DNA of 64,000 nt, from assembly GCF_001050275.1 (NCBI RefSeq), contig NZ_BBYA01000002.1, positions 62,001 to 126,000 on the forward strand, in the 5' to 3' direction. This DNA is from Leptolinea tardivitalis (lineage in GTDB: Bacteria; Chloroflexota; Anaerolineae; Anaerolineales; Anaerolineaceae). A program made the position numbers and the translations under genes. Below are positions 6,701-54,633 of the stretch, piece by piece. Each line of letters opens with the position of its first letter. Position 1 is the stretch's first letter. Under the pieces are notes generated by a model, which ran no database searches, had not been told where the DNA came from, and was given only the letters and a program-made list of their open reading frames with translations.

Positions 6701-7129
6701 CATCTTGATGAAATCACGGCGCGGTAATGTGCGCGCCATGACGGCCCGTACGGGGGCGAAAATCATGGGCGGGATGGCTGGTTTTTCTGATCCCAGCATG
6801 TGATATGGGATCAGGGATGCCAGGGTTTGCAGGCGTTCGCGCCGGGTGATATTTCCCCAAGAAGCCTGTTCGTAAAAGAGAGGGTTGGGTGCCGGAAAGG
6901 CCAGCCGGTTGGCTGTGGGATACCAGAATTTCAACTCATCCCCCAGCGTGAAAGCCCGTTCAGACCGGTCAGTGAGTACCAAAACGGGAGTTGCAACGTC
7001 TATCGCAAGAGCACAGGATACAGGCAGCCGGGCAGAACGAATCAATCCCAGTCCGGGAATGGTCTTTCCAGGACCCACGGAAGCAAGTATTTCAGCATAG
7101 CCTGGCAGATGGCGGATAAAGTCAAGCAT
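3740..7129 (-). CDS. mfd: Transcription-repair coupling factor Mfd
   Basis: A full-length Mfd of 1129 residues. It binds RNA polymerase stalled at DNA damage, removes it by ATP-driven translocation and recruits UvrA. The N-terminal third is the UvrB-like region. A CarD-like RNA-polymerase interaction domain (segment DWVVHMDYGIGRLVGL) lies near residue 460. It is followed by a RecG-type superfamily-2 motor with Walker A GDVGYGKTE and the DEEQ box in IIDEEQRFGV, then the C-terminal TRCF domain. The ATG at 7129 lies one base after the stop of pth, so the two are probably translationally coupled. No clear intrinsic terminator follows; the 276 bp to the ABC exporter start (3464-3739) hold nothing I can name. 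Confidence 0.97.
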   Translation of the reverse strand: MLDFIRHLPGYAEILASVGPGKTIPGLGLIRSARLPVSCALAIDVATPVLVLTDRSERAFTLGDELKFWYPTANRLAFPAPNPLFYEQASWGNITRRERLQTLASLIPYHMLGSEKPAIPPMIFAPVRAVMARTLPRRDFIKMVKTIKVGAQLSIDDLLRQWVEIGFQSADTVLEVGYFSRRGGILDIWPPAEQYPVRLEFFGDEVDTLRQFDPVSQRTIAKLEKFQITPAREVLPGAASRIGITGEVDEYHLPLVHPAHASLLDYMPRGSLILVDDLMAVQTAANEIEEQAVRLRSEMIKEGVLEEDYPIPYNTWSELQDTLAGQSWLELGRSTSPEIGYFGEVIQPGQRFGGRLKPFNEYIETRLKENSRVMIVSRQASRLCDLWRERQHETGTVQTPEIIDGTLSDGWEMHVDDHAALLLTDSEIFGWERPQARQRHAPSAEAPEAGYADLKAGDWVVHMDYGIGRLVGLVKRNIDDTTGEFLCIEYDNGDQLFVPVHQADRLSRYIGPGGEPPTPTRLGTTEWSTARQHASEAVQQVAHELLELYARRQVSEGYAFHNDTPWQYELEASFPYIETKDQLAAIRSVKKDMEAPRPMDRLLCGDVGYGKTEVALRAAFKAVMDGKQVAVLVPTTVLAQQHYETFRQRLTAFPVKVEMLSRFRSAREQDEIIRKLWRGEIDIIVGTHRLISQDVIFKDLGLAIIDEEQRFGVTHKEHFKKLRTEIDVLTLTATPIPRTLYMALTGVRDISTINTPPEERLPIITHIGPYSPRMVRQAVMRELDREGQIFFVHNRVQTIHAMESHLHQLVPEARVGVAHGQMPEGELARVMDQFSRGEIDILLCTSIIESGLDIPNANTLIVDRGDTFGLAQLYQLRGRVGRGAQRAYAYFFRHRRKPPTPEGQERLEVIAENTQLGAGYSIAMRDLEMRGAGEILGNRQHGVIATVGFHLYTRMLASAVRQLRQSEGMPALEEDQLNMREVQMPVAVDLPLSVGIPLDYVEDQTMRLRLYRRLADVRTEEDIEAMADEFVDRFGPLPDQLKNLLYMLRVKILSETAGLASVTVESDQLVLRFPALPEGTTSRNLPTLPVLRSRAGKNSYWLPMDADEETWKQYLIDALIEVNKLWKTT

Positions 7130-7130
7130 G

Positions 7131-7751
7131 TCAGTTCTTTTCGACAGAACCGTTGTACCGGTTCATGGCTGTATCCAGCCCATCACGTATGAATACCAGT
7201 GCAGCATCGGCAGCGGCATCGAGCATTGAATCAAGCATCTGCTGATCTGTGGAGGAAAACGGCTGCAACACATAATCGGTCACTTCCATACGGCCGGGCG
7301 GCCGGCCAATGCCCATGCGAAGGCGGGCAAAATCCTGCGTTCCCAGCCGGTCGATGGTGGAGCCTAACCCTTTCTGTCCGCCCGATCCACCTGAGGGACG
7401 AATGCGCAGACTGCCAAATGGGATATCCATATCATCGTGGATGACCAGCAGATGGTCTATGGGGATCTTATAGAAATGCAGCAACCCGCTGACGGATTGG
7501 CCGGAAAGATTCATATAGGTCTGCGGTTTCGCTAGAATAATTCGGTTGCGTGAATCTTTATAGGTGGCTGTCAATGCGTTGGCCTGCATCTTTCCCAGAA
7601 AGACATCCAGCTTTTTACAAAGGCGGTCAATGGTCATAAAACCAATATTGTGGCGGGTATTCATATATTCCCGGCCGGGATTGCCGAAACCGACGATTAG
7701 ATAGGTAGCCTGATCGGTTTCAGGTTGAGGTTTTCGAAGTAAACGAAACAT
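7131..7751 (-). CDS. pth: Peptidyl-tRNA hydrolase
   Basis: Cleaves peptidyl-tRNA released by stalled ribosomes and recycles the tRNA. The family motif YLIVGFGNPGREY is at the N-terminus, followed by TRHNIGFM, which holds the catalytic His, then KPQTYMNLSG and the HDDMDIPFG segment. I chose the ATG at 7751 (206 residues). The frame extends back to a TTG at 7796, but that would overlap the upstream gene, and the extra 15 residues are not family-like. The ATG has a GGAAAA element upstream. It lies between a membrane protein gene (17 bp gap) and mfd (1 bp gap) in a probable operon. Confidence 0.95.
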   Translation of the reverse strand: MFRLLRKPQPETDQATYLIVGFGNPGREYMNTRHNIGFMTIDRLCKKLDVFLGKMQANALTATYKDSRNRIILAKPQTYMNLSGQSVSGLLHFYKIPIDHLLVIHDDMDIPFGSLRIRPSGGSGGQKGLGSTIDRLGTQDFARLRMGIGRPPGRMEVTDYVLQPFSSTDQQMLDSMLDAAADAALVFIRDGLDTAMNRYNGSVEKN

Positions 7752-7768
7752 GCCAGTTTTCCAATGAT

Positions 7769-8407
7769 TTAAGATAATGATTTTTTGATGATCCAATAGA
7801 CGGCAAACGCCAGGAATGATCCAATTCCGGCAATGCCCCCGCGAACCAGGCTGGAATTCAGGTCTGCTCTGGATAGCACGGCAGGATTGGCAGCGAAGAC
7901 AGGTTGAGTAGGCCGTGGTGTGCGGGTGGGTACCTGTGTTTCCAGTGTGCTCATACTTTCAACTGCATTCAGCGTATTTGACGGGGTTGGAGTTTCGATC
8001 GGCGAATAATTACGCACCCGAATTCCTTTTATTTCTGCGGAGGTCGAAGTTCCATCTTTAAGGAATACGGAGACTCGCAGATCGTAAAATCCGTCAGTGA
8101 TCGTACTGGTATCCCATTCGGTGATCTTTCCCGGATTAACCGCCTGGTCAGTTTCGGCAATTAAAAACCAGGTTTCTTTTGGGTCATTCGTGTACCGAAA
8201 TTCAACCTCTGCGCGTTGAAATCCTTCCATCGCAGTAATCCCGTTAATCTCGACACGTCCTTGAAGTGCTTCACCGCCGCGCGGTGAAATTATGACCGGC
8301 TTTTTATCCGGCGCCTGTGCGTATCCAATAGCAGCAATCCAGAGGGCGGCTATCAATGAGATCAATGGGGACCATTTCGAAAGATGCATAGCATTTAATT
8401 CTATCAT
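7769..8407 (-). CDS. Membrane-anchored extracytoplasmic protein, function unknown
   Basis: I do not recognise a named family. The 212-residue protein starts with a signal-peptide-like hydrophobic stretch (about residues 12-30, ending near GYAQA). It continues with a beta-rich segment of about 100 residues resembling surface Ig-like modules (ISPRGGEALQGRVEI, later DGFYDLRVSVF). Then comes a Thr/Pro-rich linker with ETPTPSN and TRTPRPTQP, and it ends in a transmembrane helix followed by KKSLS. This predicts an outward-facing domain on a flexible stalk tethered by its C-terminus. The start could also be the second ATG at 8389. It is co-directional with pth and mfd, and divergent from the gene at 8509. 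Confidence 0.7.
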   Translation of the reverse strand: MIELNAMHLSKWSPLISLIAALWIAAIGYAQAPDKKPVIISPRGGEALQGRVEINGITAMEGFQRAEVEFRYTNDPKETWFLIAETDQAVNPGKITEWDTSTITDGFYDLRVSVFLKDGTSTSAEIKGIRVRNYSPIETPTPSNTLNAVESMSTLETQVPTRTPRPTQPVFAANPAVLSRADLNSSLVRGGIAGIGSFLAFAVYWIIKKSLS

Positions 8408-8492
8408 TACTCAAATCCATTTTTATTTAAAATTTTCCTGGCATTACTCTTGCGATCTTGTACGAGGTAATAAATCTTGATAGGGACAATGT

Positions 8493-8500
8493 GCTATAAT
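8493..8500 (+). promoter_or_regulatory. Extended -10 promoter with apparently leaderless start
   Basis: TGCTATAAT is an extended -10 element ending at 8500. The ATG of the next gene is at 8509, so transcription would begin at or within about two bases of the start codon. No Shine-Dalgarno sequence and no good -35 box are visible. Confidence 0.5.
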
Positions 8501-8508
8501 TTTTTCAA

Positions 8509-8955
8509 ATGAGCGAAGAACCTGCACAACAACCTGTTGAACCCGTTATCAAAGAAACAAGCGCTGTAACAGAAACCAGTCAAAATAAGGCGTTAATTTG
8601 GCTGGTTGTGATCATCATTCTGGTACTGGCGGCTCTGGCTGTGGGAACCATCTTTTTACTTCGCAGCGATGTCAGCACCACCGGGCACATCCGGGATATT
8701 TTCATCATCTTCATGGCGCTTGAATCCTTTATCATTGGTCTGGCGCTGATTGTTTTAATCGTTCAACTGGCGACCTTGATAAATCTGCTGCAAAATGAAA
8801 TCAAACCGATCATCAACTCGACCAGTGAAACGGTCAACACCCTGAGGGGTACGGCTACATTTCTAAGCAATAATCTGGCAGAACCGGTGATTAAATTGAA
8901 CGAGAGTGTCGCTGTCCTTCGCAAGCTGGTGGATTTTGTCAAGATTTGGAAATAG
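8509..8955 (+). CDS. Small two-helix membrane protein (DUF948-like), function unknown
   Basis: A 148-residue protein with an acidic, Gln/Pro-rich cytoplasmic N-terminus. It has two hydrophobic helices (around residues 28-52 and 66-90) and a C-terminal amphipathic tail containing IKPIINSTSETVNTLRGTA. That tail resembles the coiled-coil-like tails of DUF948/chemotaxis-like small membrane proteins. It is followed 49 bp downstream by a YtxH-type gene, a pairing that suggests a shared envelope or stress role. The start appears leaderless (see the promoter at 8493). The function is not known to me. Confidence 0.65.
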   Translation: MSEEPAQQPVEPVIKETSAVTETSQNKALIWLVVIIILVLAALAVGTIFLLRSDVSTTGHIRDIFIIFMALESFIIGLALIVLIVQLATLINLLQNEIKPIINSTSETVNTLRGTATFLSNNLAEPVIKLNESVAVLRKLVDFVKIWK

Positions 8956-9004
8956 CGTTAACTGGCGTATTAACCGGTCATACGAATCGTGAAAGGAGAA
9001 TAGA

Positions 9005-9316
9005 ATGTCAGATCGTGATGAATTTGGAGCTTTTTTAGTGGGGTTTGTGGTTGGTGGTCTGGCCGGTGCTGTCACTGCACTCTTGCTTGCACCGCAATCC
9101 GGCGAAGAAACCCGGACAGTCATCAAAGAGAAAGCAATTGAATTGCGTGATGTTGCCACGGATTCCTATAACGAAGTCTATGATGCTGCCGAGGATTTTG
9201 TAAAGACAACCAAGGATAAAGCCGTTGAGTTGGGACATCAGGGCCAGGTTATCCTTGAGGAACAAAAAGGCAAACTGGTTGGAAAGAAAGAATCCAAACC
9301 GGCAGCCGAAGCCTGA
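9005..9316 (+). CDS. YtxH-domain protein
   Basis: A 103-residue protein with one N-terminal glycine-rich transmembrane helix (GFVVGGLAGAVTALLLAP). Directly after it comes the YtxH hallmark QSGEETR, then a long charged helix ending in a Lys/Ala-rich tail. YtxH proteins are small membrane proteins of general-stress regulons in other bacteria; their biochemical role is not settled. The start has a GAAAGGAG ribosome site eight bases or so upstream. It is probably co-transcribed with the preceding membrane protein, and a strong terminator follows at 9336. Confidence 0.85.
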   Translation: MSDRDEFGAFLVGFVVGGLAGAVTALLLAPQSGEETRTVIKEKAIELRDVATDSYNEVYDAAEDFVKTTKDKAVELGHQGQVILEEQKGKLVGKKESKPAAEA

Positions 9317-9335
9317 TCGACATTTGATAATCATG

Positions 9336-9376
9336 AAACCCCTGTCAGTGTATTTTGACAGGGGTTTCCTTTTTTT
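9336..9376 (+). terminator. Intrinsic terminator after ytxH-like gene
   Basis: A perfect 12-bp stem (9336-9347 with 9356-9367), an 8-base loop and a CC-T7 tail. It ends the two-gene plus-strand unit and separates it from the converging nnr gene. Confidence 0.93.
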
Positions 9377-9400
9377 GAATAGATGAATATGCGTTTACAG

Positions 9401-11038
9401 TCAGGGCAGCAATCCGCGCAAGATGCTAAGGCTGGTAGGAATTTGTGCAATCAGATCGCTCGGTAAAATGGCGGCAGCATCCACATCTTCTGAGGCCAGG
9501 TCTCCGCAATTACCATGAATCCAGACTCCAAGTTGGGCGGCGGCAACCGGTTTGACTCCCTGTGCCAGGAAACCGGTGATCAAACCGGCCAGCAGGTCTC
9601 CGCTGCCAGCGCGGGCCAGGGATGGATTGGCACAGGTCGAAATGTACGCGTGTCCATCCGGTGAGGCGACCACGGTCAATGCACCTTTGAGAATGACGAT
9701 CTGGTTCCATTCTTTGGCGAAATGGAGCGCCAGATCCAACCGTTTTTCCTGAATTTCTTTAACAGATAATCCGGTGAGGGCAGACATTTCTCCAGGATGG
9801 GGAGTGAGAATGCAATTAGCCGGAAGCATTTTCCACCATTCAGGGATATCTGCCAGTATGCGCAGGGCATCAGCATCTATCACCAACGGGGGTAAAGTCT
9901 GGTTTGATTTAGGTTTCACATCTTCCGGTTCTGTAGGAACGAATCCAATGACGCTGCCTTTTCCTTTTTTACCCGACGGACTGAGCAGCCTGGTGAGGAA
10001 ATGCCGGGTTGTTTCTTCCGTCTCAAGACCGGGACCGATCAACATGGCACTCACTTTGTCCATATGTTTCTGAATTACCTCAACCCCCGACTCGGCGATT
10101 ACGCCGGCTTCATGTGGCAACAAAAGCCAGGTCACTTCAGGGATTGCTCCGGCAATGGCTGTGTGGATCATGCCGGGGATGGCGGCTCGAACCAATCCGA
10201 CACCACTTCGGTAGGCAGCTTCAGAAGCCAGGAGTACTGTTCCGGTATAGTTGATGGACCCGGCAACGATCATGGCTGTGCCAAATGTCCCTTTATGAGA
10301 ATCCAACGGCCGCTTGGGAAGCAGTCCGGCCATTTTCAACGGTGTAATGATTTCATGCAGTCCTTCTTCCCAGGACGGCAGGTGTTTTTCAAAACCGATG
10401 GGAATATTGACCAGGTTCCCACAATATTCGAAAGCAGGGAAGGTTAATAAACCGGATTTTACGGCTGCCATACTGAGTGTGTAATCGCAATGCAGAGTCT
10501 CCGCAGCCACTTCGCCGGTGGAACAGTCAATACCACTGGGACAGTCTACCCCAAGAATGACGAGTCCCTCGGCATATTTATTCACCGCCTTCAAAAGAGA
10601 TCGTATGGATTCATCCAGAGGTAAATGGGCGCCGGTACCCAGCACACCATCGAGCAGAAATTGGGCCTCACTGCACCACTTTTTCAAAGTGGAAAACTTT
10701 GGGTCTTCTGAATGTTTGACGAGTGTCCCGCCGGCTTCCGTGTAGCCTGTTGTCAGCGGATCAGCTTCATCGCGCTCTTTGATCAGATAAGCTCTGGTTG
10801 TCCATCCCTTTGACTGCAATTCACGCAAAGCGATTAAGGTATCGCCGCCGTTATTCCCTGATCCAACTAACCCTATTATGGAGCGTTCGGCATCCTCCTC
10901 GTATTCCATATAAAAACGGGTATCAATAAAGGAGGCAATCCCGGTCCCTGCCATCTCCATCATGGTTTCATAGGTATGACCGAGCTCATTGGCTTTCTTT
11001 TCCAGAGCACGCATCTGCTCAACGGTTGTTATTAACAT
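9401..11038 (-). CDS. nnr: Bifunctional NAD(P)H-hydrate epimerase / ADP-dependent dehydratase
   Basis: Repairs hydrated NADH and NADPH. The N-terminal YjeF_N domain (about residues 1-215, with GSGNNGGDTL) epimerises NAD(P)HX. The C-terminal ribokinase-like domain (about 225-545) dehydrates it with ADP and carries LTPHPGEM and the AGSGDLLAG motif with the catalytic Asp. The ATG at 11038 has AAGGAG four bases upstream; the frame also opens at a TTG at 11053, which I regard as untranslated. An apparent insertion of about 25 residues (KKGKGSVIGFVPTEPEDVKP) sits in the kinase-like domain. No linked pathway gene is nearby, as usual for this housekeeping repair enzyme. Confidence 0.95.
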   Translation of the reverse strand: MLITTVEQMRALEKKANELGHTYETMMEMAGTGIASFIDTRFYMEYEEDAERSIIGLVGSGNNGGDTLIALRELQSKGWTTRAYLIKERDEADPLTTGYTEAGGTLVKHSEDPKFSTLKKWCSEAQFLLDGVLGTGAHLPLDESIRSLLKAVNKYAEGLVILGVDCPSGIDCSTGEVAAETLHCDYTLSMAAVKSGLLTFPAFEYCGNLVNIPIGFEKHLPSWEEGLHEIITPLKMAGLLPKRPLDSHKGTFGTAMIVAGSINYTGTVLLASEAAYRSGVGLVRAAIPGMIHTAIAGAIPEVTWLLLPHEAGVIAESGVEVIQKHMDKVSAMLIGPGLETEETTRHFLTRLLSPSGKKGKGSVIGFVPTEPEDVKPKSNQTLPPLVIDADALRILADIPEWWKMLPANCILTPHPGEMSALTGLSVKEIQEKRLDLALHFAKEWNQIVILKGALTVVASPDGHAYISTCANPSLARAGSGDLLAGLITGFLAQGVKPVAAAQLGVWIHGNCGDLASEDVDAAAILPSDLIAQIPTSLSILRGLLP

Positions 11039-11160
11039 AAGACTCCTTGTCAAGGAAAAAGGTAAAGTGTGTTTCTATCATACAGGTTTAACTGTTAAAA
11101 TTCTAACCGGGATTTATAAGAAAGTTATATACCATTCTTCCACGAGCGAGCAACCTACCC

Positions 11161-12714
11161 ATGAAAAAATATCTGTTATTTACCGTTTTTATTTCCGGGT
11201 TGACCAGTTTGGCCGTTGAAATGGCGGCCTCGCGCCTGATGGGGAATTATTTTGGTTCCAGTAATCTGGTGTGGGCCAGCATCATCGGTTTGATACTGAT
11301 CTATTTAACCGTGGGGTACTTCATTGGCGGCAGCTGGGCAGACCGCTCTCCTCGTTATGGAACACTGTACCGTATTCTGGCCTGGGCAGGTTTGAGTGTG
11401 GCGGTAATTCCAGCCATCTCAAGACCTGTACTACGCTGGGCGGCGGATGCTTTTGATGCGATGCAATTGGGCGTATTGTTTGGATCTTTTGTGGCAGTCA
11501 TGATCCTGTTTGTTATCCCGATCATCCTGTTGGGGACGTCATCTCCATTTGCCATCCGGCTGGCAATCCAAAATAACAATGAAGCCGGGCGTATTTCCGG
11601 GAAGATCTATGCCATTTCTACATTGGGTTCGTTCATTGGAACATTCATCCCTGTGCTTTTGCTCATTCCCACTGTGGGGACGTATCGAACCTTCCTGATA
11701 CACGGGGCTGTCTTGCTGGTTTTTGCCCTTATTGGATTAAAACTGGAGGATGGGTGGAAGGCTCTCCTGCCTCTCTCATGGATGCCTATTGTTGTAATTA
11801 TCCTGTTCTTTACGATGAATATTGGCCGTGACAAGAACAGTGTCGGAATGATCTATGAGACAGAATCTGCTTATAACTATATTCAGGTGCTTGAACAAGA
11901 CGGCTTCCATATGCTGCGGTTGAATGACGGTCAGGGTGTGCATTCCATGTACCACCCGACGATTTATAATTATGCCGGTCCATGGGAACAGGTTCTTGTG
12001 GCACCTTTTTTTAATCCAGCGCCAGTCGAGGTGGCTGGCATCAACAGCATGGCCATAGTCGGACTGGCTGCAGGGACTACAGCCCGGCAGGCGATAAAGG
12101 TATACCCCAACATTTCGATTGACGGCTTTGAAATTGATCCGGAAATAGTGAAGGTAGGAAATACCTATTTTGGCATGAACCTGCCGCAATTACATGTTTT
12201 TGTGCAGGACGGCCGCTGGGGATTGGCACATTCAGGACGGAAATATCAGGTGATTAGTGTGGATGCCTATCGTCCGCCCTATATTCCCTGGCACCTCACC
12301 ACCCGCGAATTTTTTCAGACGGTTCATGACCATCTGACCGAGGATGGTGTTATGGTCATAAATATTGGTCGTGCGCCAGACGACCGCCGCCTGATCAACT
12401 CGCTGGCATCCACCATACGAACAGATTTTGCCTCCATTCATGTGATGGATTTACCTGGTACATTCAATTCCATCCTGTTTGCATCGGTTAAACCAACCAA
12501 TGCTGAAAACCTGGCGGCCAACTTTGACCAACTTCTGGCTTCCGGGAATACAGATCCGCTTCTTCTGGAGACGATGAATGTTACACTGGGAAACCTTCAA
12601 AAAGATCCTCCGGAAGCGCAGGTCTTCACCGATGACCTCGCTCCGGTGGAGGGTTTGACGAACAACATGATTTTAAAATTCCTGCTGGCTGGCGATGTGG
12701 AGATGTTGCAATGA
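11161..12714 (+). CDS. Membrane-fused spermidine synthase-like protein
   Basis: A 517-residue fusion. The N-terminal half (about residues 1-215) has seven or eight hydrophobic helices. The C-terminal half is a soluble Rossmann methyltransferase-like domain of the spermidine synthase superfamily. Its nucleotide-site segments are IVGLAAGTTARQA and GFEIDPEIV, followed by the catalytic-loop-like VISVDAYRPPYIPWHL. The family is usually annotated fused MFS/spermidine synthase; whether it makes polyamines is unproven, and the glycine motif is modified (GLAAG rather than GGGDG). It overlaps the next gene by ATGA, suggesting translational coupling. The start region has only a weak ribosome site. Confidence 0.88.
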   Translation: MKKYLLFTVFISGLTSLAVEMAASRLMGNYFGSSNLVWASIIGLILIYLTVGYFIGGSWADRSPRYGTLYRILAWAGLSVAVIPAISRPVLRWAADAFDAMQLGVLFGSFVAVMILFVIPIILLGTSSPFAIRLAIQNNNEAGRISGKIYAISTLGSFIGTFIPVLLLIPTVGTYRTFLIHGAVLLVFALIGLKLEDGWKALLPLSWMPIVVIILFFTMNIGRDKNSVGMIYETESAYNYIQVLEQDGFHMLRLNDGQGVHSMYHPTIYNYAGPWEQVLVAPFFNPAPVEVAGINSMAIVGLAAGTTARQAIKVYPNISIDGFEIDPEIVKVGNTYFGMNLPQLHVFVQDGRWGLAHSGRKYQVISVDAYRPPYIPWHLTTREFFQTVHDHLTEDGVMVINIGRAPDDRRLINSLASTIRTDFASIHVMDLPGTFNSILFASVKPTNAENLAANFDQLLASGNTDPLLLETMNVTLGNLQKDPPEAQVFTDDLAPVEGLTNNMILKFLLAGDVEMLQ

Positions 12715-13376
12715 ACTTTCTTCAAAAAATTTTGACATATCTCGTTGTGATTCTGATCCCCGTTTTCCTTTTGATGACTTCTGTGCGGTTACTTTTATTC
12801 CCCGTGTTTACGCAATTGGAATATTATCGTCCCGGTTTCCCGGCAGATCCCTATGGTTTTACCCTTCAGGATCGGCAGAAATGGAGCCAGATATCCGTCG
12901 ACTACCTGACAAATGCCGCTGGTATTGATTTCCTGGCCAATCAAAAACTGGATGAAAATACTCCGCTTTATAATGAACGGGAATTAAGCCATATGCAGGA
13001 TGTAAAAAACCTTGTTCAGGTGATGTTGATTGTCTGGCCTTTAATTGGCATCTTCATCCTTTGTGTGGGAGTCGTTTCCATGCGAAGTGGATGGCTGGCG
13101 GATTTTTGGCTGGCCGTCAGCCGAGGAGGATGGACAGCGGTTGGTTTGATCGCAGCCATACTCATCGCCGTTATGGTCAGTTTTAATGCATTATTCACAG
13201 GATTTCACCGGATTTTTTTCAGTGGGGATACCTGGTTATTCCTTTACTCTGATTCACTGATTCGGCTTTTCCCGTTGATGTTCTGGCAGGATGCCTTCAT
13301 TTTGATGGGGGCCATGGTGCTGATATTTGGCCTGGCACTTGGTTTCTTCGGTAGACGGCAATACCTTCATTCTTGA
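12711..13376 (+). CDS. TIGR01906-family integral membrane protein (DUF1461)
   Basis: A 221-residue protein with an N-terminal hydrophobic helix, an extracytoplasmic loop of about 80 residues rich in acidic and aromatic residues (DRQKWSQISVDYL, NERELSHMQDV), and three further helices. The YGFTLQDR segment and overall layout match TIGR01906 membrane proteins, whose function is unknown. The start codon overlaps the stop of the spermidine-synthase-like gene in an ATGA junction, so the two proteins probably act together at the membrane. A bidirectional-type terminator follows immediately. Confidence 0.8.
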   Translation: MNFLQKILTYLVVILIPVFLLMTSVRLLLFPVFTQLEYYRPGFPADPYGFTLQDRQKWSQISVDYLTNAAGIDFLANQKLDENTPLYNERELSHMQDVKNLVQVMLIVWPLIGIFILCVGVVSMRSGWLADFWLAVSRGGWTAVGLIAAILIAVMVSFNALFTGFHRIFFSGDTWLFLYSDSLIRLFPLMFWQDAFILMGAMVLIFGLALGFFGRRQYLHS

Positions 13377-13382
13377 AGAATC

Positions 13383-13410
13383 AAAAAGACGGCGAAAGCC
13401 GTCTTTTTTT
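13383..13410 (+). terminator. Intrinsic terminator between converging genes
   Basis: A 10-bp stem, AAAAGACGGC with its complement, around a GAAA tetraloop, with T7 on the right and A5 on the left. It can serve the plus-strand TIGR01906 gene and, more weakly, apgM on the minus strand. Confidence 0.92.
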
Positions 13411-13425
13411 CTGGAATTAACTGTC

Positions 13426-14634
13426 TTATGCACCAAATTTGTTCAGACGCAAAGCGTGAGCCAAAGACAATGGCATATTATCAAGTGCCGGGAAAATACC
13501 CAGTCCGCCATGCATACAGGCTCGTTCACCAAATTCCTTTTCCGTATCCGGGCGGACCGAAGCTGGAGCCCAAAGCAAATATGGAACCGGATGCCATGAA
13601 TGAGTCCTTAATTTTGCCGGGGTACTGTGGTCGCCGGTGATGACCAGCACGTCGGGATGAAGTCCAACGAGTTTGGGAAGGGCTGCATCAACACCTTCAA
13701 TGATCTTCACCTTGCCATCAAAATTGCCATCTTCACCGTATGAATCTGATTTCTTGATATGCACAAAGAAGAAATCGTATTCATTCCAATGGTCCGCGAC
13801 CGCTTTGAATTCATCCTCCGGTGTTTCTCCATCAAATTTAATCAAATCCATTCCTACGAGCTGGGCAACACCGCGATACATGGGGTAAACAGCCACACAG
13901 GCCGCCCGCAGGTTGTAAAGCTCTTTATAGGTTGGCAAACCAGGATCGGTGGCGAAGCCACGCAGGGTCAGCCCGTTGGCTTTTGGCTCATCTTTCATGA
14001 GCTTGTTAGCTTCTTCGATCCATTTATTGAAAAGATCGGCGGCTTTTTGCGCTGCACCGTTCTGGGCAACAACCTTCAGAGGGGCGGCACCGGTGCGTTG
14101 GGGATCAGTTTCTTCCAGATCAGGGGAAAGACCGGCTCCCCGCATCACCACCACAAAGCGGTATTCCTTTACATGTTTGACTTCGATTTCAACTCCGGGA
14201 ATTTTGATTGATTTCAATCTTTCACAGATCGGGGCGGCTTCTTCTGACGAAATGCGTCCGGCACGACGATCAATAATTATTCCATTGGAATCCAGGGTAC
14301 AAAAGTTTCCACGGGCTGCCACGTCTCCTTTGTTGACGGTTACGTTGACGCCGAATGCTTCCAAGACTCCACGGCCAACTTCTGTCTTGACGGGGTCGAT
14401 CCCAAACAGACTCAAATGAGCCGGTCCGGAACCGGGAGTGATACCTGCGCTGATCGGGCATGATTGACCAAGGATGCCTTCAGCCGCCAATTTGTCCATA
14501 TTGGGTGTATTGGCAGTTTCTAATTCAGTTTTTCCACCTGGTTCCATTGGCAGACCGCCCAATCCGTCCATTACCAGTAAAACGATTTTGCTATTGACAG
14601 GCGCCAGCAGAGATCCCAGATCTTCAATTTGCAT
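13426..14634 (-). CDS. apgM: 2,3-bisphosphoglycerate-independent phosphoglycerate mutase, archaeal type
   Basis: Interconverts 3- and 2-phosphoglycerate without a 2,3-bisphosphoglycerate cofactor. This is the aPGAM form of the alkaline-phosphatase superfamily: MDGLGGLP and NTPNMDKLAAEG at the N-terminus, the ITPGSGPAHLSLFG segment, and metal-ligand clusters VITGDHSTPAKL and HSWHPVP near the C-terminus. The ATG at 14634 is preceded by GAGGAG seven bases upstream. The open frame extends to a TTG at 14652, before that ribosome site, and is rejected. It is single-gene, flanked by terminators on both sides. A separate histidine-phosphatase-type PGM-like gene lies at 35775. Confidence 0.94.
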   Translation of the reverse strand: MQIEDLGSLLAPVNSKIVLLVMDGLGGLPMEPGGKTELETANTPNMDKLAAEGILGQSCPISAGITPGSGPAHLSLFGIDPVKTEVGRGVLEAFGVNVTVNKGDVAARGNFCTLDSNGIIIDRRAGRISSEEAAPICERLKSIKIPGVEIEVKHVKEYRFVVVMRGAGLSPDLEETDPQRTGAAPLKVVAQNGAAQKAADLFNKWIEEANKLMKDEPKANGLTLRGFATDPGLPTYKELYNLRAACVAVYPMYRGVAQLVGMDLIKFDGETPEDEFKAVADHWNEYDFFFVHIKKSDSYGEDGNFDGKVKIIEGVDAALPKLVGLHPDVLVITGDHSTPAKLRTHSWHPVPYLLWAPASVRPDTEKEFGERACMHGGLGIFPALDNMPLSLAHALRLNKFGA

Positions 14635-31544: not shown

Positions 31545-31598
31545 ATTTTGAAAGCCACCGAATTGATTCATCTTTGTAAAGCCTTTTTGACGAAAAAA

Positions 31599-31627
31599 TT
31601 GAACGAACCTGATAAGAGGTGTAAAAT
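31599..31627 (+). promoter_or_regulatory. Promoter of fluoride riboswitch A
   Basis: TTGAAC at 31599-31604 and TAAAAT at 31622-31627 are separated by 17 bases. Transcription would begin about ten bases before the aptamer. Confidence 0.6.
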
Positions 31628-31644
31628 AATAAAAACAAAACCCA

Positions 31645-31713
31645 TGCGATGAAGCTCGCAGGTATACCATATTATTTGGTTAATGGCTTCTACCTTTTGG
31701 TAGAAGCTTTTTT
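31645..31713 (+). ncRNA. Fluoride riboswitch A (crcB motif) with terminator platform
   Basis: Aptamer P1 is TGCG/CGCA enclosing the loop ATGAAGCT. A small stem ACCA/TGGT is followed by TTAATG, and GCTTC at 31686-31690 pairs with GAAGC of the loop as the pseudoknot. This matches the fluoride aptamer known from Thermotoga petrophila. The same GCTTC opens a 9-bp terminator (31686-31694 with 31699-31707, loop TTTT, then T6). Ligand-stabilised pseudoknot and terminator are therefore mutually exclusive, which predicts gene activation by fluoride. Downstream are the CBS protein and MFS transporter genes. The 5' part of the gap (31545-31598) holds nothing recognised. Confidence 0.88.
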
Positions 31714-31824
31714 CATAAATAGAGACGAATTGCTTTTATTCCGAAAAATCTTTCTAAATGACAATCTGTATTGCAATTCATAAAGAGAAAATGGTCCATC
31801 GATTTTCAAGAATAGGAGTTAGAG

Positions 31825-32253
31825 ATGATTGTTAAAGACTTTATGCAGAAAGATTTTATGGTTGTATCAACTCGAAGTTCATTACGAACCATTGCTGAAG
31901 TTATGATCCAAAAAAAGGTAGAAACAGTCTTTGTTGTAGAGAATGAAAAAGTTTTAGGTGTTCTGGGAATTCGCGATTTGTTTACTCTACCAATTCCTGC
32001 AAGTTTTGGAGGCCCTATGCAACGACAGGTAGAGGAAAGTCTTATTAATAGGTGGACAGAGACGCCTGTTGAAAATTTGATGAACCCTGATGTGATTCGT
32101 ATCCCGGAGGATTATCCATTAATGTTAGCCGCAGAAATGATGGTTAATCGAGGCAAGCATCCATTGGCTGTTATGCAAGGAGAAAAAATGGTAGGAACAA
32201 TAGACAGGCGAGATATTGTTCAAGCTTTGCTGATGCTTAATACCCAAAAATAA
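31825..32253 (+). CDS. Tandem CBS-domain protein under fluoride riboswitch A
   Basis: A 142-residue protein consisting of two CBS domains (about residues 1-60 and 75-140) with no catalytic domain attached. The first holds DFMQKDFMVVSTRSSL and the second LMNPDVIRIPEDYPLM. Such Bateman modules bind adenine nucleotides or metals and regulate partners. An AGGAG lies six bases before the ATG at 31825, about 110 bases after the riboswitch terminator. Codons are AT-richer than in flanking housekeeping genes. CBS proteins have been noted downstream of fluoride riboswitches (recollection from the literature). A regulatory role on the neighbouring transporter or on pyrophosphate metabolism is inference. 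Confidence 0.88.
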   Translation: MIVKDFMQKDFMVVSTRSSLRTIAEVMIQKKVETVFVVENEKVLGVLGIRDLFTLPIPASFGGPMQRQVEESLINRWTETPVENLMNPDVIRIPEDYPLMLAAEMMVNRGKHPLAVMQGEKMVGTIDRRDIVQALLMLNTQK

Positions 32254-32373
32254 CAGGAAAATCGAATGGTATGAATTCTGCCAGAATCGTCCAATACACG
32301 GCATTGCGTTTCTGTAAAAAATAAGAATTCCGCTATCACATAGGATGACACAAGATTTCTATTTTTAATATAG

Positions 32374-32396
32374 GTTTGGGTATATAAGTCCCAAAC
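32374..32396 (+). promoter_or_regulatory. Hairpin just upstream of the MFS ribosome site
   Basis: GTTTGGG-N9-CCCAAAC forms a 7-bp stem ending four bases before the GGAG ribosome site of the MFS gene. There is no T-tract, so it is not a terminator. It may stabilise the processed mRNA or tune translation. The rest of the 154-bp gap after the CBS gene shows no further element. Confidence 0.5.
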
Positions 32397-32407
32397 TTTG
32401 GAGAAGC

Positions 32408-33631
32408 ATGACTATGGAAATAAACGACAAGATTGAAGAGAGTCCCAAGACCTGGTTAAATCGGAATGTAATAGGAATGGCATTAGCCAGTTTTTTTAGC
32501 GATGCTGGACACGAAGCGGCGACATCGATCTTACCTTTATTCTTGATTTCAATTGGAGCACCTGCTGCATCGCTTGGTTTTATTGAGGGTGTGGCCGATG
32601 CTGTTTCATCCTTTGTAAAATTGGGGGCAGGTTGGTTTAGTGATCGAATTGGACGGCGGAAACCAATTGCTGTACTTGGTTATTTACTTACAGGGATCAC
32701 CACTGGGCTATTTGCATTGGCTCATAGCTGGGGAAGCATCCTGCTAATAAGAACGGTTGGTTGGTTTGGTAGAGGAATTAGAGGTCCGGTTCGCGATGCC
32801 ATGTTGGCTGAATCCGTTTCTCCCGAAGCTCGTGGAAGGGCATTTGGTTTTCACCGTGCGGGAGATACTCTGGGAGCAGTAACTGGCCCAATTTTAGCCT
32901 TAGGATTGACTGCTTTACTTGCGGGACATAATGGTTCGGAGACAACATACCGGCAAATCTTCTGGATCACACTCATCCCTGGCATTTTATCTGCCTTATC
33001 TTTTGCTTTCTTTATTAAAGAACAAACTCGTACTCCAGCTCGGAACGGGAACCTTTTCCAAACCATTTCCACTCTTCCAAAGCGATTCAAGATATTCTTG
33101 ATTGGGGTCGGTATTTTTGGCGCGGGAGATTTTGCACACAGTCTGCTGACGTTACGTGCGATTGAAGTATTAACACCTGATTTAGGTGCAAAAGTTGCGG
33201 GGCAAACAGCGATTGCTCTTTATATCCTTCACAATGTTTTTTACGCAGGAATGTCTTATCCAATTGGTGCATTATCCGATCGTATTGGAAAACGAGGTTT
33301 ATTAACACTGGGCTATTTACTTGCAGCAATCATGGGAATAGGTTGGATTGTCTCTGTTCCGTCTGTTTGGATGTTAGGTTTACTTTTCGGGTTAGGCGGC
33401 ACTTTCATTGCTGCTGAAGATGCACTGGAAGGAGCTTTAGCAGCTGATTTATTACCTGAAGATGTTCGAGGTACCGGGTATGGCGTATTAGCTACCATAA
33501 ATGGGTTGGGTGACTTTTTATCCAGTGTCATCGTTGGAGCATTGTGGTCGGCATTTAATCCTATTGTCGGATTCACCTACGCCACAGTATTATTCGCTCT
33601 AGGTGCTCTTATTATTTACAAAGCAAGGTGA
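32408..33631 (+). CDS. MFS transporter, candidate fluoride-response exporter
   Basis: A 407-residue major facilitator protein with about twelve helices. The loop 2-3 signature is GWFSDRIGRRKP and its pseudo-repeat in the second half is GALSDRIGKRGL; FGFHRAGDTLGAVTGP is a helix-5-type motif. The N-terminal DAGHEAATSILPLFL segment is typical of a subgroup of unknown substrate. GGAG lies six bases before the ATG at 32408. It follows the CBS gene on the same strand with no terminator between, so it should be controlled by riboswitch A. No crcB/fluc or CLC-F gene is in the window, so this is the local candidate for relieving fluoride, which is not proven. Confidence 0.88.
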   Translation: MTMEINDKIEESPKTWLNRNVIGMALASFFSDAGHEAATSILPLFLISIGAPAASLGFIEGVADAVSSFVKLGAGWFSDRIGRRKPIAVLGYLLTGITTGLFALAHSWGSILLIRTVGWFGRGIRGPVRDAMLAESVSPEARGRAFGFHRAGDTLGAVTGPILALGLTALLAGHNGSETTYRQIFWITLIPGILSALSFAFFIKEQTRTPARNGNLFQTISTLPKRFKIFLIGVGIFGAGDFAHSLLTLRAIEVLTPDLGAKVAGQTAIALYILHNVFYAGMSYPIGALSDRIGKRGLLTLGYLLAAIMGIGWIVSVPSVWMLGLLFGLGGTFIAAEDALEGALAADLLPEDVRGTGYGVLATINGLGDFLSSVIVGALWSAFNPIVGFTYATVLFALGALIIYKAR

Positions 33632-33719
33632 TTATTTAATATATTAAAGACATACAAGATTCCGCCTGTATTCGGTTATATCTTTATAAGATCTTTACAG
33701 GCAAGAATGATTATCTAAA

Positions 33720-35183
33720 TTATTTATCGTTGTCACAGAGCGGTAAAACAGCCATGCAGCGTCGCATGGCTTCAAAACATTTATGGAATGCTCCTTCAGC
33801 CGGATAAGGAAAATTCAATTGAATTGATCGAGAGGTTTCTTTTTCGATAATATTAAAACAAATATGTGAATGGATTATTGATCCTGCATACTCTAAAGTT
33901 GCAATTTGGGTTAATGGATACTCCTGTTTACTGTCATTTTTTAATTCTGATTCAGAGATTACGAGTGCACGATTGTCAGTCACAATTAATACTCGGGCAA
34001 AACCAGTATTTTCATACCAGGATGGCCACAAAGCCCAGGCAAATGCAATTTCATCCGGTTTTAGAAGAGTGTGAAGTATCTCAGAAAAATGTTGATTCAG
34101 AGAATTTTCCAATTGTGGATTATTACTGGCTGGATCAACAAGAGCCGGAAGATCCGTTGGGTGAGAAATTACGGCCCGACGCAAAGTTTTGGGATTGATA
34201 TTTTGGGGTAAAAATTTGGCCAATATCTCCGTCATTTCTAAAAGAGCAGACCGAGAATATAGTGGTGCTTCCCATTCTAGAATTTCAACACCTTTAGAGG
34301 CTTCCCAGGAGGTTTGTAGAAGCATTACCTCTTCCCCTATTTGATCGCACTTGAAACTGATCAAACGTTCCAATGGGCCTATTTTCGCATTAAAGCCGTA
34401 ACGAACTCCACTATCTCCCAATGGCACTAACTCAACAAGCTGGATTAATCGTTGAGTCGTTAAAATCAGAACACCTGCATTGATTTTTTCTCTACCAAGC
34501 CAGGATTTATGTTTGAGACTTCGCATAGGGGGACGGTAGAGAGCGTAAAGAATACGTTCATCATCAGCCAGATGTTCACTTACATAATGCTGGATATGAT
34601 AAGGGAGCTGGAAAAAAGTGTATTCAGCAGGTGTGTAATGCTCTGTTTCGTCATAGCCTGTAATATGATGGTGAGAATCGACGGGTTTCCAGGTAGGTTG
34701 AGAAGCTGGCTGAAACCCTGCCTTATTAATCAAACGGAAATTGCGAGCCGATTCCTTTATTATTGGTTTTATTGTCTTCGTATCCAACCAGGTTATTGCA
34801 CCATCTTTTGACGGCTGAAAATAACGAGACAACTCGGTACGTTGTGGATCTGAAAGATCGGTATATGAAGTTACTGCTTTGAAATTATCATCCGCTACAG
34901 AAACAGCCAACAGGAATGGTGGTGTTCCGTTAGTTTGTACTCCGCCTAAAATGCGTGCAGGAACTTGCGTTTTCGGCGGATGAGAAGCATTGCCCAGAAG
35001 AATAACCTGCAGTGGATCCCCCTGGGATGTAATTGTATTTGGAAGAAATCCGATATCGAAAGGTAATACAATTTCTGGATATAGTATTCTGGCGAGCCGT
35101 AATTGATTTTGTTCTGTAGAATAATACTGACCTGTCGGCCGCCCAGGTTGACTCATTTCGATATCAAAAATTGTCTCTTCCAT
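33720..35183 (-). CDS. Degenerate inorganic pyrophosphatase-like domain plus two PH-like segments, under fluoride riboswitch B
   Basis: A 487-residue protein. Residues about 5-145 resemble a family-I soluble pyrophosphatase: FDIEMSQ at the start, LPFDIGFLPNT where the family has YPxxYGFIPxT, and SQGDPLQVILL where it has DGDPLDVLVL. The metal-binding Asp positions before and after GDP are Gln54 and Gln59 here, the KxE substrate motif is Gln19-Tyr-Tyr21, and the second Asp cluster is absent, so it is probably not a pyrophosphatase. Residues about 205-330 and 370-485 look like bacterial PH-like domains (GVLILTTQRLIQLVEL; ARVLIVTDNRALVIS). The ATG at 35183 is preferred over a TTG at 35192; the ribosome site is weak. 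Function unknown. Confidence 0.75.
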   Translation of the reverse strand: MEETIFDIEMSQPGRPTGQYYSTEQNQLRLARILYPEIVLPFDIGFLPNTITSQGDPLQVILLGNASHPPKTQVPARILGGVQTNGTPPFLLAVSVADDNFKAVTSYTDLSDPQRTELSRYFQPSKDGAITWLDTKTIKPIIKESARNFRLINKAGFQPASQPTWKPVDSHHHITGYDETEHYTPAEYTFFQLPYHIQHYVSEHLADDERILYALYRPPMRSLKHKSWLGREKINAGVLILTTQRLIQLVELVPLGDSGVRYGFNAKIGPLERLISFKCDQIGEEVMLLQTSWEASKGVEILEWEAPLYSRSALLEMTEILAKFLPQNINPKTLRRAVISHPTDLPALVDPASNNPQLENSLNQHFSEILHTLLKPDEIAFAWALWPSWYENTGFARVLIVTDNRALVISESELKNDSKQEYPLTQIATLEYAGSIIHSHICFNIIEKETSRSIQLNFPYPAEGAFHKCFEAMRRCMAVLPLCDNDK

Positions 35184-35326
35184 TTTTACCAATTATTTCC
35201 TTACATATCTTTCAGAGTTGATCAAACCACATAACCGGGTTGATTAACTCGGAACTGGAATAATATTTCTGGTTGTTTTAATAAAGGTGAATTATTCTGA
35301 ACTGGTATTAAGGATTGGATTATTTA

Positions 35327-35400
35327 AATAAAAAGCCTCCACTGAAGAATTCAGTAGAGGCTATCAGTCAAAGGACGGTTTCGGGTGAGCCTCATCACCA
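35327..35400 (-). ncRNA. Fluoride riboswitch B (crcB motif) with terminator platform
   Basis: Read on the minus strand: P1 GGTG/CACC (35399-35396 with 35387-35384) with loop ATGAGGCT. Then GTC-CTTT-GAC followed by CTGATAGCCTCTACTG, very close to the Thermotoga petrophila fluoride aptamer. Loop GAGGCT pairs with AGCCTC (35362-35357) as the pseudoknot. AGCCTC is also the 5' arm of a terminator, 35362-35350 with 35346-35334, one mismatch, 3-base loop, then TTTTATTT. It is placed to control the pseudo-pyrophosphatase gene, whose start is about 145 bases downstream. The leader between terminator and gene (35184-35326) shows nothing else I recognise. Confidence 0.92.
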
Positions 35401-35409
35401 ACGGAAATT

Positions 35410-35415
35410 ATTATA
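35410..35415 (-). promoter_or_regulatory. -10 box of riboswitch B transcript
   Basis: TATAAT on the minus strand at 35415-35410 puts the transcription start about two bases before the aptamer. The -35 box is weak. It is divergent from the promoter at 35437. Confidence 0.6.
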
Positions 35416-35436
35416 AATCATAATTTCGACTTTTTA

Positions 35437-35465
35437 TTGACGGGAAATTTTTCGATGCTTATAAT
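35437..35465 (+). promoter_or_regulatory. Consensus promoter of riboswitch C transcript
   Basis: TTGACG (35437-35442) and TATAAT (35460-35465) with a 17-base spacer are near-consensus for the housekeeping sigma factor. The start of transcription is about 35472, exactly where the aptamer begins. Confidence 0.85.
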
Positions 35466-35471
35466 AAATAT

Positions 35472-35556
35472 AGCGATGAGACTCGCAAAAAAGCAGCATA
35501 CTGCCAAAATTGGCTGATAGTCTCTATACAACCTGTTGGGTGTATAGAGACTTTTT
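35472..35556 (+). ncRNA. Fluoride riboswitch C (crcB motif) with terminator platform
   Basis: P1 is GCG/CGC with loop ATGAGACT (35476-35483). The hairpin GCCA-AAA-TTGGC is followed by CTGATAGTCTC. AGTCTC at 35519-35524 pairs with GAGACT of the loop as the pseudoknot. The same strand begins a perfect 12-bp terminator stem (35519-35530 with 35541-35552) followed by T5. This is a gene-on design as in switches A and B. The next gene is the histidine-phosphatase-family gene at 35775. Confidence 0.9.
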
Positions 35557-35774
35557 GATTAAGAAGCAACACAGATGGTTTTCCATTTTTCATAATGAGA
35601 ATTTGATGCGCTTTTCAATTATTTCGAAGAAACAAAATCTTTTTCTTTATGAAATACGAGCTATTCAAGAAATAATGGTTCCCGTTTTATCAAAAGTGCA
35701 AATTACTTGAATTCATTGGAATGTCGAAATGTGAAGAAAGATAACCAGGGAAAATTACAAGGAGATAGATATTT
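35557..35774 (+). other. Long leader between riboswitch C and the phosphatase gene, with a possible 34-codon ORF
   Basis: This 218-base leader is unusually long for a transcript that has already passed its terminator. It contains an ATG-initiated 34-codon frame at 35606-35710, Lys/Phe/Ile-rich, without a good ribosome site. I see no second terminator or promoter. It could be a leader peptide or simply AT-rich untranslated sequence; the latter is more likely. Confidence 0.3.
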
Positions 35775-36389
35775 ATGTCAGTCAAGATTATCTTAGTACG
35801 TCATGGTCAAACTGAATGGAATAGAATTGAACGATTTCGTGGTAGGTACGATATACCTCTTAATCAAACTGGACTTGATCAGGCAACCAGAACGGGCATG
35901 AAAATATCGAAAAAATGGAAACCCACTGCTATTTACTCCAGTCCGATGGGGAGAGCTTTAGAAACAGCCAAAAAGATCGGAGAGTTCTGTGATTTGCCGG
36001 TAGTTCCTTGCGATGGATTGAATGATATTGATTATGGTGAATGGCAGGGATTGACACCTGAAGACGTAAATAAAAGATGGCCTGATTTACTTAAGGTGTG
36101 GTATGAAATACCAGAAATGGCGTATATTCCTGAAGGCGAGAGCCTGACCCAGGTAAAAGAGCGTGCCATGAGCACAATCAGAGAATTATGTGAAAAACAC
36201 CCTGACAGCACGATTGTTCTGGTAAGTCATACAGTTGTTAATCGCATGATATTATTGTCTATTCTTGGAGCAGGGAAGGATCATTTCTGGCGAATTCATC
36301 AAGATCCATGTGCGATTAATATTTTTGAACAAAACCATACTTTTTATAACGTAGTCTGTTGGAATGATACATGTCATCTAGATGTTTGA
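35775..36389 (+). CDS. Histidine phosphatase / phosphoglycerate-mutase-like enzyme under fluoride riboswitch C
   Basis: A 204-residue member of the cofactor-dependent PGM/acid phosphatase superfamily. LVRHGQTEWN at the N-terminus has the phospho-accepting His. Next come FRGRYDIPLNQTG, SSPMGRALETA with the conserved Arg, the Glu in DYGEWQGLT, and the second His in VLVSHTVVNRM. The length fits the GpmB/phosphatase subgroup rather than the 230-250-residue dPGM. AGGAG lies about ten bases before the ATG at 35775. The organism also has apgM at 13426, so this is unlikely to be the main glycolytic mutase. Fluoride inhibits enolase and phosphatases, so detoxification of an accumulating phosphoester is a plausible role, but inferred. 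Confidence 0.88.
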   Translation: MSVKIILVRHGQTEWNRIERFRGRYDIPLNQTGLDQATRTGMKISKKWKPTAIYSSPMGRALETAKKIGEFCDLPVVPCDGLNDIDYGEWQGLTPEDVNKRWPDLLKVWYEIPEMAYIPEGESLTQVKERAMSTIRELCEKHPDSTIVLVSHTVVNRMILLSILGAGKDHFWRIHQDPCAINIFEQNHTFYNVVCWNDTCHLDV

Positions 36390-36445
36390 GGGTTCATTAT
36401 CAGGCATAACGATTTATTGAAAAACTGGGGATATTAAATTGATTT

Positions 36446-37172: not shown

Positions 37173-37245
37173 GCCTCCATCGTCTAGGGGACCAGGACGC
37201 AGCCCTTTCAAGGCTAAAACCAGAGTTCGAATCTCTGTGGAGGCA
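37173..37245 (+). tRNA. tRNA-Glu (anticodon UUC)
   Basis: A 73-base cloverleaf. The acceptor is GCCTCCA paired with TGGAGGC plus discriminator A, the anticodon loop CTTTCAA gives anticodon TTC, and the T-arm is CAGAG-TTCGAAT-CTCTG. The 3' CCA is not encoded and would be added by the CCA-adding enzyme; a candidate gene is at 39848. Confidence 0.97.
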
Positions 37246-54374: not shown

Positions 54375-54633
54375 ACTCCCGCCCAAAACTGGGGCGGGAG
54401 TAAAAACTCACGCGGTTCCACCCAGATTAGTCTTTGATTGACCATCTTTGTTGACTGATAACGGAGTCATCCGTTCACCATACATGGAATAGATCCATTC
54501 AGGTTTCCGCTCGCGGGTGGTTTTCGTCGGGTCAACATGAGAACCTTTTCAGCTTCCGATTCTCTCTCTGTAATGGTGATTGTCCGATTACTCTTCCCGG
54601 TCATCACGTTTTGTTTTGACATTAGCAATTATA
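54375..54633 (-). ncRNA. T-box riboswitch leader of thrS with promoter
   Basis: On the minus strand the -10 box TATAAT is at 54633-54628. The leader then shows Stem I features (AGAGAGAGAATCGGAAGCTG near 54570-54550), the T-box core GGGTGGAACCGCG (54423-54411), and a 10-bp terminator (54401-54392 with 54384-54375) followed by GTTTGTTT. Uncharged tRNA-Thr should pair with the T-box and form the antiterminator. Candidate specifier codons ACC lie at 54521-54516; the exact one needs structural modelling. Confidence 0.9.

Follow-up and report, generated by a model that had tools for sequence, protein, structure and literature searches.

A pyrophosphatase-like pseudoenzyme with predicted PH-like domains recurs behind fluoride riboswitches and lies in a three-switch island of Leptolinea tardivitalis

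We analyzed a 64,000-nt stretch of the Leptolinea tardivitalis genome (contig NZ_BBYA01000002.1, positions 62,001 to 126,000; hereafter the window), in which three fluoride riboswitches of the crcB type lie within one block at 31590-36390. The block encodes a two-CBS-domain protein next to a major facilitator superfamily (MFS) transporter, a 490-aa protein that joins a degenerate pyrophosphatase (PPase)-like domain to two predicted PH-like domains (PPase-PH) and a histidine phosphatase (HisP). The RNA class is known; the recurrent pseudoenzyme with predicted PH-like domains behind fluoride switches is, as far as the literature searched goes, a new part of the regulon. An initial annotation, made from the letters of the window alone, had called the CBS, MFS, PPase-like and His_Phos_1 genes correctly, to which bacterial PH (bPH) domains can now be added. 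It had missed these PH-like domains, the odd composition of the block and a second island with five switches elsewhere in the genome.

The three RNAs are, judged from sequence and pairing, genuine members of the known class, a proposal of the initial annotation that is confirmed with a lineage-specific covariance model (R1); with Rfam (RF01734), only the middle copy exceeds the curated cut-off. R1 was built from 65 of 75 aptamers extracted from same-family genomes, with the source genome excluded; of the 10 omitted aptamers, some were near-copies and the rest were left out by free choice for a short set. The training set includes same-genus aptamers, such as L038:10064-10123, which corresponds to the middle aptamer, and the counterpart of the third (L038:9925-9996) is absent from it. 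Genome-wide R1 E values are 6.7e-6, 3.3e-14 and 2.9e-7 for aptamers 1, 2 and 3, respectively (Table 1). P1 starts at approximately 31645, 35399 and 35473, in agreement with the positions first proposed, and aptamers 2 and 3 are divergent, with 54 nt between them.

By reading the pairing by eye from the letters, we find P1, P3, UGAU or UAAU and a 6-bp pseudoknot in every copy (GAAGCU/GGCUUC with one G-U pair in aptamer 1, GAGGCU/AGCCUC in aptamer 2 and GAGACU/AGUCUC in aptamer 3). UAAU replaces UGAU in aptamer 1, as it does in 3 of the 65 relatives. In the alignment of these relatives, the named structure is paired in 98.0% of cells and the pseudoknot in 98.7%, with both sides changing in four of the six pseudoknot pairs. 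In all three copies, as initially proposed, the 3′ pseudoknot strand (GGCUUC, AGCCUC and AGUCUC) lies within a terminator, where it begins the 5′ arm of a hairpin that is followed by a U run. The fold z-scores of these terminators are −4.6, −4.4 and −4.8, and none of 200 shuffles is as stable.

The 490-aa protein is, on the evidence of its residues, a pseudoenzyme. Its N-terminal domain (approximately residues 8-156) matches the soluble family I PPases in Pfam (PF00719, 55.6 bits), and the predicted model retains the PPase fold (VIA Z 15.8-17.4, with 50 PPase entries among the matches listed). We examined 13 catalytic columns, all invariant in 26 ordinary PPases of the class and matched to the catalytic residues of E. 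coli PPase, by whose numbering residues are named here. The window protein retains 3 of the 13 residues; because the other 10 are missing, we do not file it as a PPase, despite the likeness in fold and sequence of its N-terminal part. Across six members of the family, 3, 0, 2, 3, 3 and 2 of the residues are kept, which leaves the initial proposal that this protein handles pyrophosphate unsupported.

A second difference from known PPases is the C-terminal half, which is predicted as two tandem PH-like domains (approximately 188-327 and 359-488), with a barrel and a C-terminal helix (pLDDT 86). The second of these matches bPH_3 in Pfam (26.5 bits against a cut-off of 23). The best structural matches are the bacterial PH proteins 3dcx and 3hsa (Z 9.1 over 111 and 116 residues, with root-mean-square deviations of 2.9 and 4.0, respectively), which share the predicted PH-like fold, whereas here two such domains follow a PPase-like barrel in one protein that is encoded behind fluoride switches. 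Many other matches are titled PH, PTB, myotubularin or GLUE, domains that have a common fold; the match rows mostly span the first PH-like domain, and the absence of other folds among them is uninformative. Foldseek itself gave no hit with an E value of 0.001 or lower, and a sequence profile of the C-terminal half against the PDB gave nothing at E up to 1.

We consider it most likely that the PPase-PH protein serves as a binding or scaffold protein and not as a hydrolase. Alternatively, its PPase-like domain may still bind pyrophosphate, phosphate or Mg-F, though no longer as a hydrolase, and signal this through the PH-like domains, as a sensor of fluoride or phosphate. Family I PPases bind F⁻ at their metal centre, the fold is kept, and the acidic positions D67 and D97 each survive in three of the six members, all of which speaks for such a sensor. 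However, the equivalents of D65 and D70 are altered in all six members and that of D102 in five, and a Pfam scan of four further family members found no PPase domain at E up to 0.01. We regard the sensor as unlikely. We also considered the protein as a partner of an ordinary PPase and rejected this, as PF00719 matches nothing in the genome but the 490-aa protein itself; a membrane PPase gene is present on contig 8 (C8), and family II PPases were not a target of the search.

The PPase-PH loci were found by protein search, independent of the RNA. Relatives occur in Leptolinea sp., Anaerolinea thermolimosa IMO-1 and metagenome-assembled genomes of Chloroflexota; most of the other listed matches are confined to the N-terminal part and lie in frames about as long as an ordinary PPase. 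After merging duplicate locus identifiers, 22 distinct loci remain, 17 near full-length and 5 partial. A switch lies on the same strand within 250 nt upstream in 10 of the 17 (47-234 nt; 156 nt in the window) and farther upstream on the same strand in another six (790 nt in one of them and 2.2-6.6 kb in the other five). The one locus without a switch, L155, has only 1.7 kb of contig upstream. Among the partial matches, the switch lies at 27 nt in L160 (198 aa), 46 nt in L159 and 6.7 kb in L163, and none was found in L162 or L164. At L118, a switch stands just before the match, whose frame was too short for it to enter the count. Given eight switches in a 3.7-Mb genome, we judge this linkage to be far beyond chance. 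Genes for a NUDIX hydrolase (L106:12490-13035) and a Na+/H+ exchanger (L106:13057-14301) lie in a run behind fluoride switches, and this run also leads towards a PPase-PH gene.

We found no terminator between the CBS and MFS genes, and co-transcription is therefore plausible. The window MFS protein and four relatives form a supported clade (99/97): G180, the closest (64% identity over 397 columns), lies in a switch operon; G719 (58% identity) has a switch 51 nt upstream; G466 (49% identity) has a weak switch of 22.5 bits; and G618 shares 48% identity. The adjoining clade of 13 has no switch. Two further groups in the tree, from which one row under 60 bits was left out, are entirely switch-linked (10/10 and 3/3), but their members were picked from switch loci. 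When R1 was run at E up to 1 on 20 loci around MFS genes (L215-L234) and on L163, it gave two matches in L215, one in L163 and none in the remaining 19 MFS-gene loci.

Four other switch loci contain a relative of the 142-aa CBS protein, in each case adjoining a transporter gene: a P-type ATPase in L045, L094 and L049 (fragmentary) and an MFS protein in L064. The 784-aa neighbour in L094 was called an ATPase from its likeness to the letters of the L045 protein. We infer that the CBS protein would be a regulatory partner of a fluoride-induced transporter. The ATPase gene of L045, at L045:8292-10736, lies with its CBS partner gene behind a fluoride switch.

The initial annotation took the MFS protein to be the fluoride transporter of the block and its enzymes to clear pyrophosphate. 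A fluoride switch does precede the MFS gene, and switch-linked members occur in three MFS clades of the tree. Against this model, the contig 10 gene for CrcB follows a fluoride aptamer of its own (46.4 bits with R1), most catalytic residues of the PPase-like domain are lost and, to our knowledge, no MFS fluoride exporter has been described. We therefore find the model improbable, and the MFS protein as sole exporter unsupported; a role auxiliary to CrcB fits better. That no CrcB/CLC-F exporter is in the block holds for the window but not beyond it: in the window, tblastn with the CrcB of this genome found no match at E up to 1 (the probe recovers itself in its own locus). The single CLC match of the genome is at C11:68078-69106 on contig 11, with no R1 switch match near it; apart from the rejected candidate described below, R1 has one weak match on contig 11 (13.0 bits at 191284).

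With R1, the source genome (3.69 Mb in 15 contigs) holds eight fluoride switches in total. The five outside the block form a second island on contig 10 (L006, C10:698000-717000, at 4228-13469 of that locus), where they precede genes for CrcB and a DUF190-CBS protein, two MutS-like genes, an enolase gene with one for a zinc-ribbon/HEAT protein, and genes for a 294-aa protein and small proteins of 140 and 130 aa. The 294-aa protein has no Pfam match; with hhalign, it aligns to the first PH-like domain at a probability of 64 and a pairwise E of 6e-5, which is only suggestive of a relationship. The next-best candidate in the genome for a ninth switch (C11:244885-244946; R1 20.5 bits, E 0.03) was rejected because it lies inside a long open reading frame.

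Across the family, RF01734 matches at E up to 0.01 in 53 of 147 genomes and over its cut-off in 34. We clustered mechanically called genes downstream of switches in 71 loci chosen for holding switches. Such clusters comprise CrcB (27 genomes), DUF190-CBS/CBS (21), enolase (19), MutS-like proteins (19 and 18), small proteins without assigned function (15), MFS (10) and HisP (9). The window block thus belongs to a larger fluoride super-regulon that is found across a substantial fraction of the family. The dedicated fluoride regulon that had been proposed stands as a switch regulon, as relatives of all four of its proteins recur in other fluoride-switch loci of related genomes, but the block is only one of its two islands.

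Two other groups of proteins were observed after fluoride switches. The u130/u134/u140 proteins, one cluster of which occurs in 15 genomes, recur at L042:8060-8887, L048:8363-9389, L053:6822-7843, L062:7535-8041 and L065:7068-8454, and the two of these small proteins that were scanned have no Pfam match. DUF6062 proteins lie downstream of switches at L043:8126-8935, L061:8370-9146 and L104:11759-13324; another, at L045:11920-13728, also carries a dynamin-like GTPase domain.

HisP carries the active-site motifs of branch 1 histidine phosphatases (RHG, SSP, the acidic EWQG and SHT). Its nearest solved relatives, phosphoserine phosphatase 1 (PspA, 4ij5) and the PhoE-type phosphatase 1h2e, are alike over the full length and in catalytic motifs; what sets HisP apart is its place behind a fluoride switch. 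It matched no NCBIfam model at the curated cut-off. Orthologues of at least 51% identity are present in 10 of the 147 family genomes, with eight downstream of a switch and five adjoining enolase. The initial description of a phosphoester enzyme is in keeping with the motifs and the frequent enolase neighbour, but its substrate claim goes past the sequence evidence.

No other 4.8 kb of the window has a G+C content as low as that of the block (39.6%; the flanks measured have 51.0 and 50.1%), and the second island, on contig 10, is similarly low (39.2% versus 50.9%). Fluoride genes are lower in G+C than their neighbours in 45 of 61 loci, with a median difference of 3.3 points. In a genome of the same genus (G065), DNA similarity is limited to window 33742-36328, with HisP, the PPase-PH gene and the two switches between them; the flanks differ, and no CBS-MFS pair is present in the stretch examined. 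Together, the low G+C and the non-shared flanks suggest modular, lateral spread of the island. A tRNA gene lies close to its right side (window 37173-37245, plus strand), and a T-box leader is found at 54387-54613 (minus strand, 98.3 bits).

Table 1. Features of the fluoride-switch block, in window positions
Feature	Position	Strand	Basis
Sigma-70-like promoter TTGAAC-17-TAAAAT, CBS-MFS transcript	31599-31627	+	9/12 consensus
Fluoride riboswitch aptamer 1	31636-31699	+	Rfam 26.0 bits; R1 33.3 bits
Intrinsic terminator over 3′ pseudoknot strand of aptamer 1	31685-31714	+	Terminator scan, fold
Two-CBS-domain protein, 142 aa	31825-32253	+	Domain match; relatives in switch loci
MFS transporter, 407 aa	32408-33631	+	Domain match; clade of 5, 4 switch-linked
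PPase-like protein with two predicted PH-like domains, 490 aa	33720-35192	-	Pfam, structure model, residue columns
Intrinsic terminator over 3′ pseudoknot strand of aptamer 2	35334-35362	-	Terminator scan, fold
Fluoride riboswitch aptamer 2	35348-35408	-	Rfam 40.1 bits; R1 62.2 bits
Sigma-70-like promoter TTGACG-17-TATAAT, histidine phosphatase transcript	35437-35465	+	11/12 consensus
Fluoride riboswitch aptamer 3, long-linker type	35463-35533	+	Rfam 18.2 bits; R1 38.0 bits
Terminator hairpin and U run of aptamer 3	35519-35557	+	Fold; missed by simple scan
Histidine phosphatase (branch 1), 204 aa	35775-36389	+	Domain match, active-site motifs

We think it probable that the block is a laterally mobile fluoride-response island, which combines a switched MFS/CBS pair auxiliary to CrcB with a pseudoenzyme and a histidine phosphatase. 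As the 3′ pseudoknot strand is common to aptamer and terminator, bound fluoride should keep the terminator from forming and turn all three transcripts ON, which is the established logic of the class (PMC2864571). Fluoride would then induce the MFS transporter and its CBS partner, in support of the CrcB exporter of the second island, the PPase-PH pseudoenzyme, and the PspA/PhoE-related HisP, which would probably relieve phosphoester build-up or restore flux around fluoride-inhibited enolase.

Several observations weigh against this picture. Full-length PPase-PH is rare and patchy, being found in 3 of 147 family, 4 of 298 class and 8 of 400 phylum genomes with the own genome counted, and, among the seven loci whose switch is distant, an unbroken same-strand run was followed only in L104. 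The MFS relative G618 has no switch nearby, neither G033 nor G092 has a direct switch at its HisP orthologue, and in 16 of the 61 loci the fluoride genes are not lower in G+C. Finally, of the three aptamers only the middle one passes the curated RF01734 cut-off of 34 bits, the outer two having been recovered below it in a permissive scan. These scores could mean that aptamer 2 alone is functional and that aptamers 1 and 3 are decayed relics, but their genome-wide R1 E values, intact pseudoknots and terminators (z below −4) and the promoter-like hexamers ahead of both make this unlikely. Promoter-like matches in the region are near chance level (17 observed, 14.6 expected), and so only the 11/12 match at 35437 stands out.

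The block shares with the RF01734 class the aptamer fold, the pseudoknot, the overlapping terminator and the ON logic (PMC2864571), and differs from the CrcB/CLC-F outputs of that class in that a CBS-MFS pair and a PPase-like protein with PH domains are downstream. The closest described arrangement is the fluoride operon of Enterobacter cloacae FRM (ppaC-uspA-eno-gpmA-crcB-orf5249), in which, according to PMC5533749, a switch likewise precedes genes for an exporter, enolase, phosphoglycerate mutase and pyrophosphatase. There, a single operon includes a Mn-dependent PPase gene, whereas here two islands with eight switches encode a catalytically lost family I PPase-like domain. Enolase and pyrophosphatase are also named among frequent fluoride-switch genes in a review (PMC11139923). 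Literature searches combining PPase, PH domain and pseudoenzyme gave no fluoride-linked publication, the gene list of the Baker et al. 2012 survey being outside this comparison, and those combining fluoride riboswitch with pleckstrin homology, CBS domain or DUF190 gave none. Fluoride riboswitch with Chloroflexi returned only work on Megasphaera, and with major facilitator only a review whose MFS protein belongs to a flavin mononucleotide switch. Passages of PMC7266159 and PMC9495176 gave nothing on the block proteins.

Fluoride riboswitches are good pointers to fluoride-resistance genes, and in distant members of one phylum they mark a PPase-PH architecture that has no assigned function. We tentatively propose, as a possibility short of an even chance, that PPase-PH represents a new class of fluoride-resistance factor, a fluoride-induced pseudoenzyme scaffold or sensor that was derived from a fluoride-poisoned enzyme and spread across Chloroflexota on mobile islands. 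The derivation of its N-terminal domain from a fluoride target poses the question of how a dead copy of a poisoned enzyme aids the cell under fluoride. More broadly, some bacteria arrange their fluoride defence as multi-switch islands, which is useful for work on defluorinating microbes.

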